From Cyclobacteriaceae bacterium (GTDB taxonomy: Bacteria; Bacteroidota; Bacteroidia; Cytophagales; Cyclobacteriaceae): a DNA stretch of 64,000 nt. The stretch lies in assembly GCA_019694875.1 (NCBI GenBank), contig JAIBBC010000002.1, positions 930,001-994,000 of the forward strand. The letters are read 5' to 3'. Both the position numbers and the translations under genes were made by a program. Each line of letters opens with the position of its first letter. The first letter of the stretch is position 1. Shown here one piece after another: positions 55,387 through 63,881 of the stretch. The notes beneath the pieces were generated by a model, which saw only the letters and a list, made by a program, of their open reading frames with translations, ran no database searches and was not told the origin of the DNA.

Positions 55387-56871
55387 ATGTCGAAGCGATA
55401 CATTGGCTTTTTCACAGGCATACTTGCCTTCATAATAATAATGGTGTTGCCTGCACCGGAAGGCCTTTCGCACGAAGGAAAAAGTGCGGCAGCGGTGGTG
55501 ATACTGATGAGTATCTGGTGGATTACCGAAGCAATTCCTGTTTTTGCAACCGCGTTCCTGCCACTCGCGCTTTATCCGGTACTTGAAATTCTACCCGCGT
55601 CAAAAACAGCCGTTAACTACGGACATAATTATGTGCTGATGATGCTCGGAGGATTTTTCCTCGGCAAAGCAATCGAATCACAAAATCTGCATAAGCGCAT
55701 TGCACTCATCATTATTAATATTTTCGGTGTAAGCCGAAGAAGGATCATTTTCAGCATGATGGTGGCAACCGCTTTTCTTTCTATGTGGATCGCGAATGTT
55801 ACCGCTGCCGTGATGATGTTTCCGATTGCATTATCGATCGTATCGAAAGAAGAGGAAGATCTTTCCGGCCAAAAGAGCACATTTGCCACCGCGTTAATGC
55901 TCGGTATCGCGTATTCGGCAACACTTGGCGGACTTGGTACATTGATTGGAACACCGACTAACCTCATCATGATTGGTATTCTCGAAAATCTTTTTCCGGA
56001 TGCTCCGCCCATTACTTTTTTCACCTGGCTGAAAGTCGGCTTGCCTTTATTGATTGTGCTATTACCCCTGTTCGCCTATTATTTGTCGCGGTACTTCCGT
56101 GTAAGCGGAAACCTCAATGGCAATGAAACGCTGATTAAAGATGAGCTCAGCGCTTTGGGCAAAACAACGCCCGGTGAACGGAGAGTGATTTACGTTTGCA
56201 TCTTCGCGATCGTTGGATGGGTGTTTCGTGAGAACCTCGTGCTGGGCGACTTTGTTATCCCGGGCTGGAGTGAATTGCTCGGGCTGCAAGACTTCGTACA
56301 TGATAGCACAGTAGCGATGGCTGCATCCATTATGCTGTTTGCAATTCCGGCAACCAAAGAGAAGCGACTGCTCGACTGGAAACAAGCAAGTCAGGTTCCC
56401 TGGGGAGTTGTTATGATTGTGGGTGGAGGGTATGCAATTGCCGCAGGTTTTGAGTCCACCGGTCTTGCCGACTGGTTGGGCGCGCAACTCGCATTCGTCA
56501 GCAGCTATCCGTTTATCGTTGTACTGATATTGGTAATCGGATTTGTGATGATCTTTACAGAATTCAATTCGAATACAGCAACCGCCAATATTTTGTTGCC
56601 GGTTTTGGCGAGCATGGCAGTTGCGGCAAGTATGAATCCATTGTTGCTGATGATTCCGGCCACGGTTGCATCATCGCTCGGGTTTATGATGCCCGCGGGT
56701 ACAGGGCCCAATACAGTGATCTTCGGAAGTGAACGGGTAACGGTATCCGACATGGTTAAATGCGGAGTGTGGCTTAATCTGATCAGCCTGATTGTGCTCA
56801 CGATCCTGATGTATTTTATTATCATGCCGTGGCTGAATTTTGAACCAACGTTACCGGCATGGGCGCAATAA
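55387..56871 (+). CDS. DASS/SLC13 family anion:sodium symporter, probable citrate or dicarboxylate transporter
   Basis: The 494-residue protein has about eleven membrane helices with the two family SNT-like motifs (GTLIGTPTNLIMIG and FNSNTATANILLP) and the TEAIPVFATAFLPLALYP segment. DASS carriers import di- and tricarboxylates with Na+. Since citrate lyase genes follow after 37 bases, citrate is the likely substrate. A purine-rich GAAAGG lies directly before the ATG. Confidence 0.9.
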   Translation: MSKRYIGFFTGILAFIIIMVLPAPEGLSHEGKSAAAVVILMSIWWITEAIPVFATAFLPLALYPVLEILPASKTAVNYGHNYVLMMLGGFFLGKAIESQNLHKRIALIIINIFGVSRRRIIFSMMVATAFLSMWIANVTAAVMMFPIALSIVSKEEEDLSGQKSTFATALMLGIAYSATLGGLGTLIGTPTNLIMIGILENLFPDAPPITFFTWLKVGLPLLIVLLPLFAYYLSRYFRVSGNLNGNETLIKDELSALGKTTPGERRVIYVCIFAIVGWVFRENLVLGDFVIPGWSELLGLQDFVHDSTVAMAASIMLFAIPATKEKRLLDWKQASQVPWGVVMIVGGGYAIAAGFESTGLADWLGAQLAFVSSYPFIVVLILVIGFVMIFTEFNSNTATANILLPVLASMAVAASMNPLLLMIPATVASSLGFMMPAGTGPNTVIFGSERVTVSDMVKCGVWLNLISLIVLTILMYFIIMPWLNFEPTLPAWAQ

Positions 56872-56908: not shown

Positions 56909-58138
56909 ATGAGCAAAACGGGATTTGCAGGCAACAAGGGTGACAAAGACAGATCGGACTGTTTTGTCGAACTGGAGCTTGCGTCATCTGGCGGTATCAG
57001 GGTTGCCCTAAAAAGCAAAGTTAAATTCCTTTATGGCGACAGCATTGAAGCTTTGTGCAACGAAGTGTTGGCTTTTTTTGATGTCAAGCATGCTGTTGTA
57101 ACACTGGAAGATAAAGGTGCATTGCCGTTTGTCATTGCCGCCAGACTGGAAGCTGCTATCAAAAGAGTTATCCGGACAGAAAAAGAATTTCTTCCGGCAC
57201 TGCTTACTGAAAATCAATATGAAACTGCGCGCGACCGGCACCGGTTCTCGCGATTGTATTTACCCGGAAACACGCCAAGCCTGATGATCAATGCGGGCGT
57301 CCACAAACCGGATGCGGTGATCCTTGACCTGGAAGATGCAGTTGCAATTGACCGGAAAAGTGAAGCCCGGTTTCTTGTTCGCAACACGCTGCGCGCGCTC
57401 GACTTCATGGGAGCGGAACGCATGGTACGCATCAATCAATTACCGGCCGGGTTGAATGATCTGGACTATATCATCCCGCATCACGTCAATGTTGTCCTGA
57501 TTCCGAAATGTGAAAACGCACACCAGATTCATGAAGTCAACAATCATATCCTTGCAATCCACAATCGCCTGAACGTAAGGTCGACCGTTTGGCTAATGCC
57601 GATTGTTGAAAGTGCTCTGGGCATTGTGAACGTATTTCAAATTGCCGGAGCGGCTGATAATGTGGTTGCGGTTGCCATCGGTCTCGAAGATTATACAGCC
57701 GACTTGGGTGTTAGTCGTACTATCGAAGGAACGGAATCACTTTTCGCACGAAGCATGGTTGTAAATGCGTGTAAAGCAGCAGGTGTTCAGCCGATTGATT
57801 CAGTATTTTCAGATGTGGGAGATATGGAAGGTCTGCAAAAAAATGTGATGCAGTCGAAAGCGCTGGGTTTTGAAGGAATGGGCTGCATTCATCCGCGACA
57901 AATAAAAATCATCCGGGATGGATTTGCACCGGCTGATCAGGAGATCAACAAAGCAAAAAGAATTGTCTGTGCATTTGATGAAGCAACCCGCAAAGGGCTG
58001 GGTGTCGTATCGCTGGGCACAAAAATGATTGACGCACCCGTGGTGAAACGTGAGCAACGCACAATCGACCTGGCTATTTCGCTGGGTAAACTGGACACGA
58101 ACTGGAAAGATACTTTTAACGCAGAGGTACAGGCATGA
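56909..58138 (+). CDS. Fused citrate lyase acyl-carrier (CitD-like) and beta (CitE-like) protein
   Basis: From the ATG at 56909 the product is 409 residues. Residues 1-88 resemble the gamma acyl-carrier subunit, most clearly at VVTLEDKGALPFVIAARLEA, which parallels the CitD end of the helix bundle. Residues 111-400 are a CitE aldolase domain (RFSRLYLPGNTPSLMINAG, PDAVILDLEDAV, IGLEDYTADLGVSR, EGMGCIHPRQ). The region that normally carries the prosthetic-group Ser (AGTxESSD) reads AGNKGDKDRSD, keeping only one Ser (Ser16). It overlaps the citF start (ATGA) by four bases. Confidence 0.82.
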   Translation: MSKTGFAGNKGDKDRSDCFVELELASSGGIRVALKSKVKFLYGDSIEALCNEVLAFFDVKHAVVTLEDKGALPFVIAARLEAAIKRVIRTEKEFLPALLTENQYETARDRHRFSRLYLPGNTPSLMINAGVHKPDAVILDLEDAVAIDRKSEARFLVRNTLRALDFMGAERMVRINQLPAGLNDLDYIIPHHVNVVLIPKCENAHQIHEVNNHILAIHNRLNVRSTVWLMPIVESALGIVNVFQIAGAADNVVAVAIGLEDYTADLGVSRTIEGTESLFARSMVVNACKAAGVQPIDSVFSDVGDMEGLQKNVMQSKALGFEGMGCIHPRQIKIIRDGFAPADQEINKAKRIVCAFDEATRKGLGVVSLGTKMIDAPVVKREQRTIDLAISLGKLDTNWKDTFNAEVQA

Positions 58139-59697
58139 GTAAAACGGCAAAGCTTGTGGTAAATGCAATCGGTCGGGCTGTTCCAACGGAAGTGAATGGC
58201 AAACCTGTTATTCCATATAAAGGAGTTGGAAAGCATAAACCTGAGGGAAGAAAATACGGCCCCCGCATTGCATCATGTGCTGATTTCCCGGAAGATGGTA
58301 ACAAACTCGTGCAATCGCTCAGACAGGCATTGATCAAAAGTGGATTAAAAGATGGAATGACAATCTCTACGCACCATCATTTCCGAAATGGTGATCTGAT
58401 TGCTGTACAGATTTTTGATATCGCTAAAGAACTTGGTATTAAAAATCTTGTCTGGTTTCCTTCTGCATCGTTTGAATGCCATGCTCCGTTAACAAAATAT
58501 CTCGAAGATGGAACAATTCATCACATCGAAGGAAGTATGAACGGTCAGCTGGGCCGGTTCACTTCTGAAGGGAAGATGAAAGGAACGGGAGTGTTGCGTT
58601 CGCATGGCGGCCGATATCAGGCCGTGCAGGATGGTGAAGTGGAAATTGACATCGCAGTTATAGCTGCACCTGCGGCAGACTTTTTTGGAAATGCAAACGG
58701 AGTGGACGGACCGGCTGCCTGCGGGTTACTCGGCTTTGCGCTTGCCGATTCGCAATATGCCGATAAAGTGATTGTTGTTACCGACAATTTGGTACCGTTT
58801 CCGTGTGTACCCTGGCAGATACAAGGCAACTATGTTGATTATGTAGTTAAAGTTGATCAGGTAGGTATTCCTTCAAAGATCGTTTCCGGCACAACCGAAA
58901 TTACGAGGAGTCCGGATCGTTTATTGCTGGCCGAAATGACAGCCCGGTTTTGTGAACACGCGGGAATTATCAAAGACGGTTTTTCTTTCCAGGCAGGAGC
59001 GGGCGGAACTGCTTTGTCGATCGGAATCTATTTCGCTGAAATGCTGAAGGCGAAAGGAATGAAGGCTCGTTTTGCGCGGGGCGGTAGCAATAAGTATCTG
59101 GTAAGTATGCTTCAGGAAGGATTAGTAGATTATATTCTGGATGGGCAAACGTTTGATCTGGACGGAGTGAAATCGATGCGCGAGAACCCGAATCATGTTA
59201 ATACAAGTCCGTTTACAAGCTATAACTATCACGGCAAGGGGAATTTTGCTTCCATGCTCGATGTCGTCATTCTTGGAGCCACGGAAGTCGATTTGAACTT
59301 TAATGCCAATGTGGTAACACACTCCGATGGTTTACTGTTGCACGGTATTGGCGGCTGGCAGAATTGTTTATTCGCGAAGTGTACGATTCTTCCGGTGCCG
59401 TTGTTTCGCGACCGCATTCCGGTTATCCGCGATGAGGTAACAACGTTGTGCGGACCGGGTGAGTTGATCGATGTGATTGTTACCGAACGGGGCATCGCCA
59501 TCAATCCGTTACGTACCGATTTAATTGAGCGCGTCAGGGATAGTGGTTTGCCGGTTAAAACAATCCATCAATTGAAAGAAGAAGCGGAGAAGATTTGCGG
59601 AGTTCCGGCTAAACAAAAGTTTGAGAAAGAAATTGTTGCAGTGGTTAAATGGGTTGATGGAACTGTACTGGATACTATTTATAAGGTGTCTTCATAA
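58135..59697 (+). CDS. citF: Citrate lyase alpha subunit
   Basis: The 520-residue CitF homologue carries TISTHHHFRNGDLIAVQ, KNLVWFPSASFECHAPLTKYLEDGTIHHIEGSM, the SFQAGAGGTALSIGIYF CoA-transferase-type segment, and HSDGLLLHGIGGWQN. It transfers the acyl-carrier from acetate to citrate; with CitE it cleaves citrate to acetate and oxaloacetate. Nearby genes do not include citC, citX or citG. Confidence 0.92.
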   Translation: MSKTAKLVVNAIGRAVPTEVNGKPVIPYKGVGKHKPEGRKYGPRIASCADFPEDGNKLVQSLRQALIKSGLKDGMTISTHHHFRNGDLIAVQIFDIAKELGIKNLVWFPSASFECHAPLTKYLEDGTIHHIEGSMNGQLGRFTSEGKMKGTGVLRSHGGRYQAVQDGEVEIDIAVIAAPAADFFGNANGVDGPAACGLLGFALADSQYADKVIVVTDNLVPFPCVPWQIQGNYVDYVVKVDQVGIPSKIVSGTTEITRSPDRLLLAEMTARFCEHAGIIKDGFSFQAGAGGTALSIGIYFAEMLKAKGMKARFARGGSNKYLVSMLQEGLVDYILDGQTFDLDGVKSMRENPNHVNTSPFTSYNYHGKGNFASMLDVVILGATEVDLNFNANVVTHSDGLLLHGIGGWQNCLFAKCTILPVPLFRDRIPVIRDEVTTLCGPGELIDVIVTERGIAINPLRTDLIERVRDSGLPVKTIHQLKEEAEKICGVPAKQKFEKEIVAVVKWVDGTVLDTIYKVSS

Positions 59698-59730
59698 TTT
59701 ATGTCAACGGCAATAACACTTTTCCTGAAA

Positions 59731-59753
59731 GGCCACATCTTGTGGTCTTTTTT
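59731..59753 (+). terminator. Terminator of the citrate operon
   Basis: GGCCACA (59731-59737) pairs with TGTGGTC (59741-59747), with one G-T wobble and a TCT loop, followed by six T. It lies 34 bases after the citF stop. Confidence 0.8.
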
Positions 59754-60027
59754 AGTTTAAGGAACCTTCTATTTCCGGCTATTCGTGTTGAATTCATCGC
59801 ATCTCCCCACGGGATGCAGCAACCGTTTTCGGAAATTTTAGTGAACAGATTTGTGCTGAATGATCTCGCGGTGTAGATATGATAAGTAAAGTGAATTTGA
59901 AATTTAATGCATTGATAATCAATTATTTATTTACTGGTAGTGGCCTTTACGATTGTCATAATGATCCATTTTTTGAAGAATTCAATCGTTTGAAGTGCCT
60001 ACGTTTGAAATACCTATACGAGAGTCT
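59754..60027. other. Intergenic region between citF and ribokinase
   Basis: Between the terminator and rbsK there are about 270 AT-rich bases with no reading frame. The right end holds the rbsK promoter box. Nothing else was recognised. Confidence 0.6.
60000..60007 (+). promoter_or_regulatory. Candidate -7 box of the ribokinase-SusC operon
   Basis: TACGTTTG is an exact TAnnTTTG match, 20 bases before the rbsK ATG at 60028. It falls inside the longer alternative frame starting at 59995, which supports the shorter start. A TTTG at 59972-59975 is 24 bases away, somewhat too far for a good -33 box. Confidence 0.5.
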
Positions 60028-60948
60028 ATGAAAAAAATCATTGTAATCGGAAGCTGTAATACCGACATGGTTATCAAAACCGACCGGCTTCCTACGCCAG
60101 GTGAAACCGTGTTGGGCGGCACATTCCTGATGAATGCCGGAGGCAAAGGAGCGAATCAGGCTGTTACTGCTGCACGCCAGGGAGGAAAAGTAACCTTCAT
60201 CTCAAAAACAGGAAACGATGTATTCGGTAAACAATCAGTTGAACTCTACAATTCGGAAGGAATTAATACTGACTATATTTTTTCTGATCCTAAAAATCCT
60301 TCGGGCGTAGCATTGATTACAGTCGACTCGCATGGCGAGAATTGTATTGTAGTCGCGTCAGGCGCGAATGGAAGTTTATCTCCTGCTGATATCGAAAGCG
60401 CAAAATCTGAAATTGAAAGCGGTGACTTTATTTTAATGCAGCTCGAAATTCCGATTGAAACCGTTGAATATGCAGCTGAACTCGCAAGCAAGAAAGGCAT
60501 TCCGGTTATTCTAAACCCTGCGCCAGCCCGAACATTGCCGGAAAAATTATTGAAGTGCTTATATGTCATCACTCCCAATGAGCATGAAGCAGAAATGCTT
60601 TCCGGAATCAAAGTCACCGATTGGAACAGTGCGCGTAAGGCTGCTGATATCATTAGCGACAAAGGTGTCGACAATGTGGTGATTACGATGGGAGCGCAAG
60701 GTGCTTTCGTCAAGGAAAAAGATCAATACTATACAGTTGATGCCACGAAAGTTGTGGCAATTGACACTACAGCAGCGGGTGACTCGTTCAGCGGGGCGTT
60801 TTGTGTGGGACTTGCGGAAGGCAAAAATATTCTTGAAGCGGTTAAGACTGCTACACGGGTTGCAGCGATAACGGTTACGCGCATGGGTGCTCAATCGTCT
60901 ATTCCGTTCCGTAATGAGCTTGCTTTGTTAGAAGTTGAAAAAGGGTAA
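60028..60948 (+). CDS. rbsK: Ribokinase
   Basis: From the ATG at 60028 the product is 306 residues. It shows the PfkB-family motifs GGTFLMNAGGKGANQAVTAAR, SKTGNDVFG, PNEHEAEML and DTTAAGDSFSGAF with the catalytic Asp. It phosphorylates ribose to ribose 5-phosphate. It precedes a SusC/SusD pair, which suggests the operon handles ribose or ribonucleosides. Confidence 0.9.
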   Translation: MKKIIVIGSCNTDMVIKTDRLPTPGETVLGGTFLMNAGGKGANQAVTAARQGGKVTFISKTGNDVFGKQSVELYNSEGINTDYIFSDPKNPSGVALITVDSHGENCIVVASGANGSLSPADIESAKSEIESGDFILMQLEIPIETVEYAAELASKKGIPVILNPAPARTLPEKLLKCLYVITPNEHEAEMLSGIKVTDWNSARKAADIISDKGVDNVVITMGAQGAFVKEKDQYYTVDATKVVAIDTTAAGDSFSGAFCVGLAEGKNILEAVKTATRVAAITVTRMGAQSSIPFRNELALLEVEKG

Positions 60949-60950
60949 TC

Positions 60951-63881
60951 ATGAACACTAACCTCCATGTTATGAAAAAAATGTTACGCGCAGTTATCCT
61001 GCCCGCTTTGCTTTTTTGTATATCGGCTGTGTTTGCGCAAAGTCAGATTACCGGTGTTGTTAAAGATGCTTCAGGCCAGGGACTTCCCGGTGTGAGCGTT
61101 ACGGTTAAGGGAACGACTTCAGGAGTTATCACGGATGCTGACGGTACATTTTCCCTGAATGCGGCAGATGGAGCTGTATTGGTTTTCTCGTTTATCGGGT
61201 ACGAGAGTGTTGAACGAACCGTGGCAGGAAGCACTTCGATCAATGTTGAGCTCCATGAGTCAACCACACTACTGGATGAAGTGGTCATGATCGGATATGG
61301 CACAACCACCAAGAAGGAACTCACCGGTGCCGTAACGTCCGTCAAGTCGAAGAATTTCAACACCGGTAACTTCAATGATCCGATGGGTCTTGTGCAGGGA
61401 AAGGTTGCCGGATTATCGATTACTAAACCCGATGGAGCCGACCCAATGGCCGGTTACCAGATTATCCTGCGCGGAACCAACACGCTTATGGCAGGCCAGG
61501 GCCCGCTGATCATCATTGACGGTGTGATTAGTGCCGATTTAAAAAATATAAACTTTCAGGATGTAGAATCAATTGACGTGTTAAAAGATGGATCAGCAGC
61601 GGCCATCTATGGAACACGAGGTACCAATGGTGTGATCATCATTACAACCAAACCTGCGAAAGCCGGAAAGGGTGCATTTGAGTATTCCGCTCAGGTTTCC
61701 ACGCAGGTAGCTCCACGCGGTGTGCAAAATCTTAGTGCCAAAGAATTTAAACATGCTGTTGAAACCTATCGGCCTGATCTTGCTTCAGGAAGCCTTTTTG
61801 GAAGTGAAACTAACTGGTTTAAAGAGATCACTACCGATGCCCCAATAAGCTATCAGCAGAATCTTGCACTTTCTGGAGGAACTGATAAATTTTCACACCG
61901 CACATCCTTAACGCATAGTATAGGGCAGGGCTTGCTGCTGAATAACGTTTCCAAACGACTGCTGGTCAAGACAAACCTGCAACAGAAAGTTCTGGATGAT
62001 CGATTGACCTTAAACTTCAATTTCACCAACAGCCTGAGAAACTATAAACCGGCAAACTATGATGTATTCCGGCAGGCATTTATTCAAAATCCTACCCAAC
62101 CGGTTTATGACGATACAGATCCGGCAACGGGTGGCTATTCGTACAAGCAAGGACTGGAGTATTACAACCCGGTTGCGATGATTAAAGAAAGGACCCGCGA
62201 TGGCAAAACGAATGACATCATTTTGAATTTGCGCGCTACCGCTAAAATTCTTGATAATCTCAGCTGGGACAATTTCATTTCCACGCAGCGATCTGAGTGG
62301 GAAGAAAACTCGTATAAAACACGCTATTATCCCACCACGCTTGGACGAGGAGAAGCGGAAATTGCGAACGGCCGAAATATCAACAACCAGTTCGAAAGTA
62401 TGTTCAATTATGAGACTTCTTTCGGTAACCATACGCTTCAGGCGCTGGCCGGATATTCATTTCAGGAATTTGAGCAGAGCAATTCCTACATCGGAAATTC
62501 ACAGTTTGATACCGATGTATTCCTGTACAATAATATTGGCGTAGGGCAGGCATTGATTGATGGTTCGGCTGATATGAGTTCAGGCAAGTCGTCCAGCAGA
62601 CTGATTGCACTCTTCGGCCGGCTTCTTTATAACTACAACGAGAAGTACATGGCTTCTGCTTCTCTCAGACGGGAGGGCTCTTCAAAGTTTGGCGACAATA
62701 ACAAGTGGGGTATGTTTCCGGCCCTGAGTTTGGGCTGGCGGATGAACAAAGAAGCGTTTCTGCAGGATGTTGAGTGGATTAACGATTTGAAGTTGCGTGT
62801 GGGATATGGAATTACGGGTAATCAGGATTTTGCACCGTATCAATCGCTCATCATATTGGAACGCGTGGGTAGTTTATTCTATAACCAGCAATGGATTAAC
62901 TCGTACGGCCCCGGTCAAAATCCAAATCCAAACTTGCGTTGGGAAAAAAAGAAGGAACTGAACATTGGTGTTGATTTTGCCCTGCTCACACAACGGCTGA
63001 GAGGAAGTATCGAATTTTATGAAAGAAAAGCTCAGGATCTCCTTTGGTTGTTCAATGTTTCTGTGCCGCCATACCTGTACAACGAACTGTTTACCAACGT
63101 GGGAACAATCAGCAATAAAGGCATTGAGCTTACGCTGAATGCTCAATTGATCAAGAAAGGTGATTTCCAATGGAATTCTACACTTACGGTAAGTCATAAT
63201 CAGAACACGCTGGAAGACATATCCAATAAAGAATTTCCGAGAACATCCTATCCAAGTGCAACAACTTCCGGCATCCTCGTAACCTATACGCAACGAATTC
63301 AGGAAGGAAAAGCATTAGGCACTTTTTTCGGACCGGTTTGGCTTGGTGTGAAAGATGGACGTGATGTTTTCAAAAATCAAAACCCGATTGGCCAGGTTAG
63401 TGAAGATAAATGGGAGGACATCGGGCAAGCTACTCCCTTTGCCACCGTGGGGTGGAGCAACGATTTCAGTTATAAAAACTGGACGCTCAATATAAACTTT
63501 CGGGCGGGCATCGGGGGTAAGGTGTTGAACTTGTACCGTCTTTATTACGAATCATGGCAGCGTATGGGCCTCACCAATATCGTTCATACGCAGTATGAGA
63601 ACCCTGAGTTTACAGGCGGTATCGTTTATTCATCCAAGTATGTGGAGGATGCGACATTTCTCAAACTCGACAACCTTACACTCGGTTACAACATTAACCT
63701 GGCATCAAAATATATTTCCCGGTTAAGTGTATTCGGTTCAGCTCAGAATGTTTTTTGGATTACCGGGTATAAAGGCATTGATCCGGAAGTCAGCCTCTCC
63801 GGATTGACACCGGGTATTGACAGACCATCGTATTATCCCCGAACTACCAGTATTACTGTTGGAGTAAATGCAGCCTTTTAA
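60951..63881 (+). CDS. SusC/RagA family TonB-linked outer-membrane protein
   Basis: The 976-residue receptor has a signal peptide (MKKMLRAVILPALLFCISAVFAQ; the ATG at 60972 may be the true start). A CarboxypepD_reg-like domain follows (about 34-110), then the SusC plug with VVMIGYGTTTKKELTGAV and VESIDVLKDGSAAAIYGTRGTNGVI, then a large barrel ending in VNAAF. It starts two bases after the ribokinase stop. With the SusD gene it would take up a glycan or nucleoside; the substrate is suggested only by ribokinase. Confidence 0.93.
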   Translation: MNTNLHVMKKMLRAVILPALLFCISAVFAQSQITGVVKDASGQGLPGVSVTVKGTTSGVITDADGTFSLNAADGAVLVFSFIGYESVERTVAGSTSINVELHESTTLLDEVVMIGYGTTTKKELTGAVTSVKSKNFNTGNFNDPMGLVQGKVAGLSITKPDGADPMAGYQIILRGTNTLMAGQGPLIIIDGVISADLKNINFQDVESIDVLKDGSAAAIYGTRGTNGVIIITTKPAKAGKGAFEYSAQVSTQVAPRGVQNLSAKEFKHAVETYRPDLASGSLFGSETNWFKEITTDAPISYQQNLALSGGTDKFSHRTSLTHSIGQGLLLNNVSKRLLVKTNLQQKVLDDRLTLNFNFTNSLRNYKPANYDVFRQAFIQNPTQPVYDDTDPATGGYSYKQGLEYYNPVAMIKERTRDGKTNDIILNLRATAKILDNLSWDNFISTQRSEWEENSYKTRYYPTTLGRGEAEIANGRNINNQFESMFNYETSFGNHTLQALAGYSFQEFEQSNSYIGNSQFDTDVFLYNNIGVGQALIDGSADMSSGKSSSRLIALFGRLLYNYNEKYMASASLRREGSSKFGDNNKWGMFPALSLGWRMNKEAFLQDVEWINDLKLRVGYGITGNQDFAPYQSLIILERVGSLFYNQQWINSYGPGQNPNPNLRWEKKKELNIGVDFALLTQRLRGSIEFYERKAQDLLWLFNVSVPPYLYNELFTNVGTISNKGIELTLNAQLIKKGDFQWNSTLTVSHNQNTLEDISNKEFPRTSYPSATTSGILVTYTQRIQEGKALGTFFGPVWLGVKDGRDVFKNQNPIGQVSEDKWEDIGQATPFATVGWSNDFSYKNWTLNINFRAGIGGKVLNLYRLYYESWQRMGLTNIVHTQYENPEFTGGIVYSSKYVEDATFLKLDNLTLGYNINLASKYISRLSVFGSAQNVFWITGYKGIDPEVSLSGLTPGIDRPSYYPRTTSITVGVNAAF

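Follow-up and report, generated by a model that had tools for sequence, protein, structure and literature searches.

Citrate lyase is a textbook enzyme that carries a coenzyme A (CoA)-derived arm and depends on three dedicated accessory enzymes. We analyzed a 64,000-nucleotide stretch of a Cyclobacteriaceae bacterium genome (assembly GCA_019694875.1, contig JAIBBC010000002.1, positions 930,001 to 994,000 of the forward strand; hereafter the window), in which two subunits of this enzyme, CitD and CitE, are encoded as a single protein followed by the third, CitF. Our data show that this pair is a citrate lyase homologue that departs from the canonical enzyme in two features that we tested, the serine that carries the arm and the accessory genes. 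The locus is organized as follows, with all features on the + strand:

55387..56871, +: DASS-family di/tricarboxylate transporter (PF00939; above the TIGR00785 cut-off), gene 1 of a likely three-gene operon
56909..58138, +: CitD-CitE fusion, a single open frame of 409 amino acids plus stop
56909..57184, +: CitD-type domain, residues 1-92 (PF06857 at residues 15-86)
56930..56962, +: loop GNKGDKDRSDC, residues 8-18, the canonical attachment-serine site, here Arg15-Ser16-Asp17
57242..58078, +: CitE-type triosephosphate isomerase (TIM)-barrel lyase domain, approximately residues 112-390 (PF03328), catalytic residues intact
58135..59697, +: CitF, citrate lyase alpha subunit (transferase; TIGR01584, 520.2 bits against a cut-off of 501.45)
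59727..59751, +: terminator-like hairpin 3' of CitF (pattern scan only)

The CitD-CitE fusion and its CitF partner

An earlier note on this DNA, made from the letters alone, had described one uninterrupted frame reading first as CitD and then as CitE, and profile searches of both domains bear this out. PF06857 (CitD) matches residues 15-86 (E 3.4e-17, 62.9 bits, cut-off 25.1; Pfam), relating the N-terminal part to CitD, and PF03328 matches residues 116-329 (E 8.4e-52). The fusion narrowly misses the citD equivalog model TIGR01608 (61.7 versus 63.5 bits; NCBIfam), and its CitE part is closest to citE, yet falls below the TIGR01588 equivalog cut-off (270.7 versus 443.4 bits). The CitF partner and the transporter that the note had placed after and before the fusion are likewise recovered by TIGR01584 and TIGR00785, both above their cut-offs, and the transporter additionally matches the citrate-transporter model PF03600. 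The CitF start overlaps the fusion stop by four bases. The order transporter-fusion-CitF is kept in L003 (same genus) and L004 (same family), and L005 has the transporter and fusion in the same order before its contig ends; because this gene order is shared among the three, the fusion is not a local frameshift. Terminator-like hairpins number 7 in the stretch in a pattern scan, against 5.6 expected by chance, and a promoter-like site lies 5' of the transporter in a scan that yields about as many such sites as chance. Downstream of the operon (59995-63881) are a ribokinase-like gene and then a SusC-type outer-membrane receptor, judged from their translations.

AlphaFold2, run with 105 related sequences, modeled the whole fusion as a confident single chain (mean predicted local distance difference test score (pLDDT) 96.6, predicted template modeling score (pTM) 0.93). 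Among solved folds, Foldseek places the lyase part nearest to malyl-CoA lyase (E 5.5e-26 to 4l9y) and CLYBL. Residues 1-92 modeled alone gave a pLDDT of 93.5, and every solved structure compared with them had an E-value above 0.001; the best 50 structures for this domain are mostly ribosomal chains, and include EF-G, LONP1, and a homoserine kinase. Searched as a profile against PDB sequences, the domain gave a weak match (E 0.68) to MdcC, while the bulk of its matches were designed beta-trefoils sharing a short RSD match, which we took as chance.

We aligned the fusions in 105 rows, drawn from 113 collected after removal of six short rows, L107 (which has an insertion), and L110 (a duplicate of L013). 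The Mg2+-binding and catalytic residues of malyl-CoA lyases (PMC3832036), transferred to the fusion through an alignment with CitE-like lyases, are D140, E142, D143, R174, E234, D261, and D375, and each is invariant in 105 of 105 fusions. His328 is also invariant (105/105), as in the IHP motif of five aligned CitE-like lyases, and the same position is Asn in seven of nine canonical CitEs. The CitF proteins of the fusion clade form a recognizable sub-group, with 20 positions fixed differently from eight canonical CitFs; six of these positions fall between 396 and 411.

Among 395 sampled Bacteroidota, we found a CitD domain in 37, always within frames of 377-455 amino acids; the CitE part was read directly in the window and 29 others, and the other seven were judged by frame length. 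Within the same family, 4 of 196 sampled genomes carry the fusion, four more match through separate CitE-like proteins, and several genomes of the same genus gave no match. We then collected the best 80 further loci from a contig scan seeded with fusions. Their record titles include Bacteroidota, Cloacimonadota, Chloroflexi, Gemmatimonadota, Planctomycetota, Acidobacteria, Calditrichota, Neomarinimicrobiota, Ignavibacteria, and Krumholzibacteriota, among others, with the proviso that nearly all are metagenome bins in which single phylum labels may be wrong. CitF is present in 74 of these 80 loci. We did not find it in L079, L089, and L114, where the contig ends at or just past the fusion, or in L045, L092, and L107, where there is room for it; in these latter three, CitF may be encoded elsewhere in the genome.

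In a phylogenetic tree of 44 of the 105 fusions, nine canonical CitEs, and seven other CitE-like proteins (five of them distinct, with very long outgroup branches), the fusions all fall on one side of one branch (Shimodaira-Hasegawa-like approximate likelihood ratio test (SH-aLRT) support 95), beside canonical CitE (support 77). No relative was confirmed on viral contigs. In a phage collection, seven records match, and the five examined (H51-H55) show one or two pieces at less than 60% identity. These records, filed as phages, contain citrate-lyase-like genes; one or more of them is from Salmonella enterica, which makes host DNA in phage records likely. A plasmid origin was similarly rejected, as all 562 plasmid records match at less than 60% identity and the 10 examined have citD and citE annotated as separate neighbors.

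The attachment loop and the accessory genes

We take the arm-carrying serine to be the first serine of ES[SG]D, Ser14 in E. coli CitD. In our alignment, eight of eight canonical CitDs (controls picked by hand) read AGT[LI]ES[SG]D and have this first serine. The fusions instead read AGxxGxxvRSDC, and an alignment anchored on the following Asp and strand pairs window Arg15 with E. coli Ser14, and Ser16 with the other ESSD serine, a position occupied by Gly in E. coli. The change from ESSD to DRSD described in the earlier note is correct as letters, but the alignment does not support its choice of Ser16 for the classical site, since Ser14 aligns with Arg15. Across the 105 fusions, 97 have Arg at position 15, three have Lys, two have Ser, and three have another residue; Ser16 is kept in 103, Asp17 in 104, and Cys18 in 92. 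The loop between Gly8 and Asp17 comprises eight residues in 102 fusions and six in the other 3, compared to five in canonical CitDs, and holds a mean of 2.6 Lys or Arg residues, compared to none in nine canonical CitDs counted. The weak MdcC match opens at profile position 18 and MdcC position 27, and extending it without gaps would set Arg on MdcC Ser25, the prosthetic-group carrier (PMC5534430).

The second serine is missing in two lineages, L013/L110 (RAD) and L092 (NND); L013 has a CitF partner, and none was detected in the 18.9-kilobase (kb) locus of L092. We rejected Cys18 as an essential acyl-carrying thiol, with Leu, Val, or Ile in its place in 13 of 105 fusions. In L034 (G378), the fusion frame begins inside the CitD domain and the RSD loop is missing, possibly due to a frameshift or a truncated gene.

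The earlier note had also pointed out that none of the accessory genes is adjacent to the fusion, which proved correct at the locus and across the genome. In the window's own genome (5 contigs, completeness listed as 100%), profile searches returned no match to CitC, CitX, or CitG, with a positive E. coli control (E. coli citC, citX, and citG are present by annotation). MdcG also gave no match in this genome, in a search where the sole control genome to match scored below the cut-off. The Pfam CitG family includes MdcB; because the family covers both enzymes, the known route to the arm precursor appears to be absent altogether.

We extended these searches to 40 fusion genomes, the 37 Bacteroidota and three of the same family, 39 of which are at least 90% complete. 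CitX, CitG, and MdcG were each found in 0 of 40, with the E. coli control for CitX and CitG and the sub-cut-off control for MdcG. The CitC profile gave partial matches in 20 of 40 genomes (20-35 bits, frames of 163-182 amino acids). All five matches that were checked are CoaD, scoring >200 bits against a cut-off of 103.3. The remaining 15, which were not checked singly, have the same length and matched part as these five; we thus dropped the idea that half of the fusion genomes encode CitC.

In fusion genomes of other groups, CitG was not found in 18 of 19 (completeness not stated). The 19th, a Carboxylicivirga genome, has CitG, and carries its fusion (L115) elsewhere in the genome. Its second locus (L130, G600:C1:1297000-1316000) encodes unfused citD (with ESSD), citE, and citF together with a true CitC and a CitG/CitX frame. 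Even in a genome with both enzymes, the accessory genes therefore accompany the canonical one, and L130 and L115 constitute a natural side-by-side control of a canonical operon and a fused citDE-citF. Finally, phmmer searches with the E. coli proteins found CitC, CitX, and CitG in 0 of the best 80 fusion loci within the flanks available (at least 3 kb on both sides in 51 of the 80), while the same probes recovered all three from L130 and from each of seven canonical loci on plasmids.

A candidate mechanism and its alternatives

We propose, at a probability of roughly 0.56, that the CitD-CitE fusion and CitF form a two-protein citrate lyase that acts on free CoA esters without a covalent arm. 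The enzyme would dispense with the covalent 2'-(5''-phosphoribosyl)-3'-dephospho-CoA arm, and CitF would instead carry out acyl exchange between acetyl-CoA and citrate to give citryl-CoA and acetate. The CitE domain with Mg2+ would then split citryl-CoA into acetyl-CoA and oxaloacetate, for a net reaction, presumably in the direction of cleavage, of citrate to acetate and oxaloacetate. Cellular acetyl-CoA would prime the cycle, leaving no need for CitC. The CitD domain would be kept as a docking scaffold, and its former attachment loop, now longer and basic, may clamp free CoA non-covalently by its phosphates. Citrate would enter through the transporter. The proposal predicts the absence of exactly the three accessory genes, CitG and CitX because there is no arm, and CitC because the cell makes acetyl-CoA. 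Isolated citrate lyase subunits can reportedly use CoA esters as substitutes for the carrier. The earlier note had suggested either a free CoA ester or a different prosthetic-group route. The former fits best because the attachment serine is Arg in 97 of 105 fusions, no CitX, CitG, or MdcG was found, and no true CitC was found; the latter is less likely, with the conservation of Ser16 in 103 of 105 fusions in its favor.

Several observations weigh against this proposal. Few parts of the CitD domain are as well conserved as this loop, and its near-invariant Ser16 would also fit an enzyme that modifies it. The fusion loop is three residues longer than the canonical one, and the Ser14/Arg15 pairing depends on where the alignment is anchored, here the Asp and the strand after it. 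Two of the 105 fusions, L011 (G413) and L075 (G585), still have a serine at the classical position (SSD), although neither genome gave a CitG match (G585 is only 1.4 Mb in size), which in turn favors the proposal. His328 is a weak mark, as Asn occupies this position in four of seven non-citrate-lyase outgroup rows. MdcC is not among the best 50 structures for the CitD-domain model. The genome counts are not independent, because the fusion, the Arg, and the missing genes may share one ancestral event. Finally, homoaconitase- and homoisocitrate dehydrogenase-like neighbors at other loci weaken citrate as a clade-wide substrate.

These neighbors bear on an alternative in which free CoA esters are used as proposed, but the substrate in at least part of the clade is an acid other than citrate, for example citramalate, 2-methylcitrate, or homocitrate, the last of which would yield acetate and 2-oxoglutarate. 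Within 7 kb of the fusion in the best 80 loci, the neighbors include HDIG-type proteins (25 loci), genes of the isocitrate/isopropylmalate dehydrogenase (23), aconitase (22), and PrpD (13) families, and OAD-beta-type decarboxylase subunits (7), with each neighbor cluster named from one or a few members. Dehydrogenase and aconitase occur together in 14 of these loci, and at least one of dehydrogenase, aconitase, PrpD, and decarboxylase in 37; because of these neighbors, tricarboxylate chemistry is likely for the fusion clade. Five of eight aconitase-family neighbors examined exceed the TIGR00139 homoaconitase cut-off (719-844 versus 529.9), and the other three match only broad aconitase/isopropylmalate dehydratase/homoaconitase subfamily models. 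The neighboring dehydrogenases are nearest homoisocitrate dehydrogenase models in four of four examined, all below the cut-off. With homo-type models nearer, we dropped a face-value naming of the neighbors as aconitase, 'NAD isocitrate dehydrogenase', and 'oxaloacetate decarboxylase'.

A non-citrate substrate is also consistent with the low score of the CitE domain against the citE equivalog model and with the differently fixed positions of CitF, several of which lie between 396 and 411. However, CitF exceeds the citF equivalog cut-off, aconitase and dehydrogenase model names are a weak guide to substrate, and five of five PrpD neighbors examined fall far below every PrpD cut-off. Beside the window operon no neighbor of these types is seen, only the transporter, which also matches a citrate-transporter model; citrate uptake and cleavage is therefore the likeliest use of the window operon. 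On balance, we consider a non-citrate substrate possible in at least part of the clade but rather unlikely.

Several features of these neighborhoods are worth recording in their own right. A cluster of (homo)isocitrate dehydrogenase-like, HDIG, and (homo)aconitase-like genes with citDE and citF, often with PrpD, recurs in operon-like form in several groups (L065, L096, L103, L105, L108, L109, L110, L056, and L078) and hints at homocitrate chemistry; its small HDIG protein is without obvious role. The OAD-beta-type gene adjoins carboxyl-transferase and glyoxalase-type genes and may be part of a methylmalonyl-CoA decarboxylase; in L060 (1978-5786) and L073 (5773-6189), the carboxyl transferase, OAD-beta-type subunit, and glyoxalase-type gene resemble a methylmalonyl-CoA decarboxylase/epimerase set. 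The fusion is not supported as a replacement for citrate synthase, which is encoded elsewhere in the host genome and in 35 of 40 genomes examined (21 of 21 Bacteroidota and 14 of 19 others; 19 Bacteroidota fusion genomes lie outside this sample).

A second alternative, which we judge less likely again, is that an unrelated enzyme, such as a 4'-phosphopantetheinyl transferase or an undescribed transferase, fits a covalent thiol arm to Ser16, with another enzyme for priming. The retention of Ser16 and Asp17 (103 and 104 of 105 fusions) speaks for such an arm. Against it, none of the 40 genomes has a member of the CitX, CitG, or MdcG families, the attachment and priming enzymes would both need replacing, and L013, which has CitF, and L092 lack a serine at this position altogether. 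Moreover, seven of eight canonical CitDs also have Ser in the Ser16 column, where it is not the attachment site that we assume, so the conservation of Ser16 may be inherited from the canonical CitD column.

It is very improbable that divergence or assembly gaps hid the accessory enzymes of an otherwise ordinary citrate lyase: profile searches can miss diverged enzymes, and our MdcG control match was itself sub-cut-off, but the genome is listed as 100% complete, the E. coli control was positive for CitC, CitX, and CitG, the same searches detected CitG and CitC in the one genome with the canonical set, and the attachment serine is also replaced.

Returning to the arm-free use of free CoA esters, we advance a broader version of it only tentatively, and doubt that it holds in full. 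In this version, a clade spanning many phyla would have moved from a covalent cofactor to free CoA by way of a Ser-to-Arg phosphate clamp. In groups with (homo)aconitase-like and (homo)isocitrate dehydrogenase-like neighbors, it would supply the ATP-independent cleavage in an undescribed route, which could be a reductive tricarboxylic acid (TCA) branch with citrate, or 2-oxoadipate breakdown in which homocitrate is converted to acetate and 2-oxoglutarate.

Comparison with known systems

We found no CitD-CitE fusion or arm-free citrate lyase in the open literature, searched by titles and the starts of abstracts; most subscription journals lie outside that search, and a prior mention is possible. 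If the arm-free proposal is correct, a large sister clade of citrate lyase shows the prosthetic arm to be dispensable, and the two clades provide a natural before-and-after pair for the conversion of a covalent-carrier enzyme into a free-cofactor enzyme. Annotation would need correcting, as citD, citE, and citF labels in many uncultured phyla need not imply a CitCXG pathway, and reconstructions of central metabolism would gain a candidate for ATP-independent tricarboxylate cleavage.

The closest known system is canonical CitDEF of E. coli, lactic acid bacteria, and others, which has homologous CitD, CitE, and CitF in the same order, with the catalytic residues kept and presumably a similar net reaction. 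In contrast to this system, the window has CitD fused to CitE, Arg in place of the attachment serine, a longer and basic loop, and a CitE part below the equivalog cut-off, in a genome with no CitC, CitX, or CitG found. For Geobacter bemidjiensis, it has been suggested that a canonical citCDEFXG cluster acts in a reverse TCA cycle (PMC2996986). CitD, CitE, and CitF homologues are also found in a Peptoclostridium acidaminophilum operon beside methylaspartate genes (L127), which probably encodes a citramalate lyase; unlike in the window, its genes are unfused, ESSD is intact, and the accessory genes are adjacent.

The fusion shares its TIM-barrel, Mg2+-binding and catalytic residues, and IHP motif with malyl-CoA lyase, CLYBL, and (S)-citramalyl-CoA lyase. 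Unlike the fusion, the solved CitE-like lyases that act on free CoA esters are single lyases without a CitD domain, and our tree, which includes few outgroup lyases, sets the fusion apart from them and beside canonical CitE. The CitD domain belongs to the same Pfam family, PF06857, as the acyl carrier MdcC of malonate decarboxylase. The nearest structures reported for MdcC are EF-G, Lon, and mevalonate kinase (PMC5534430), and our CitD-domain model likewise has EF-G, Lon, and a homoserine kinase among its nearest structures. Malonate decarboxylase uses its Ser25 carrier together with MdcB (CitG family) and MdcG, and neither family was found in the window genome.

Citryl-CoA synthetase/citryl-CoA lyase and ATP-citrate lyase make citryl-CoA with ATP. 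The mechanism we propose would also pass through citryl-CoA; unlike in these systems, CitF here would form the intermediate by acyl exchange, without ATP.

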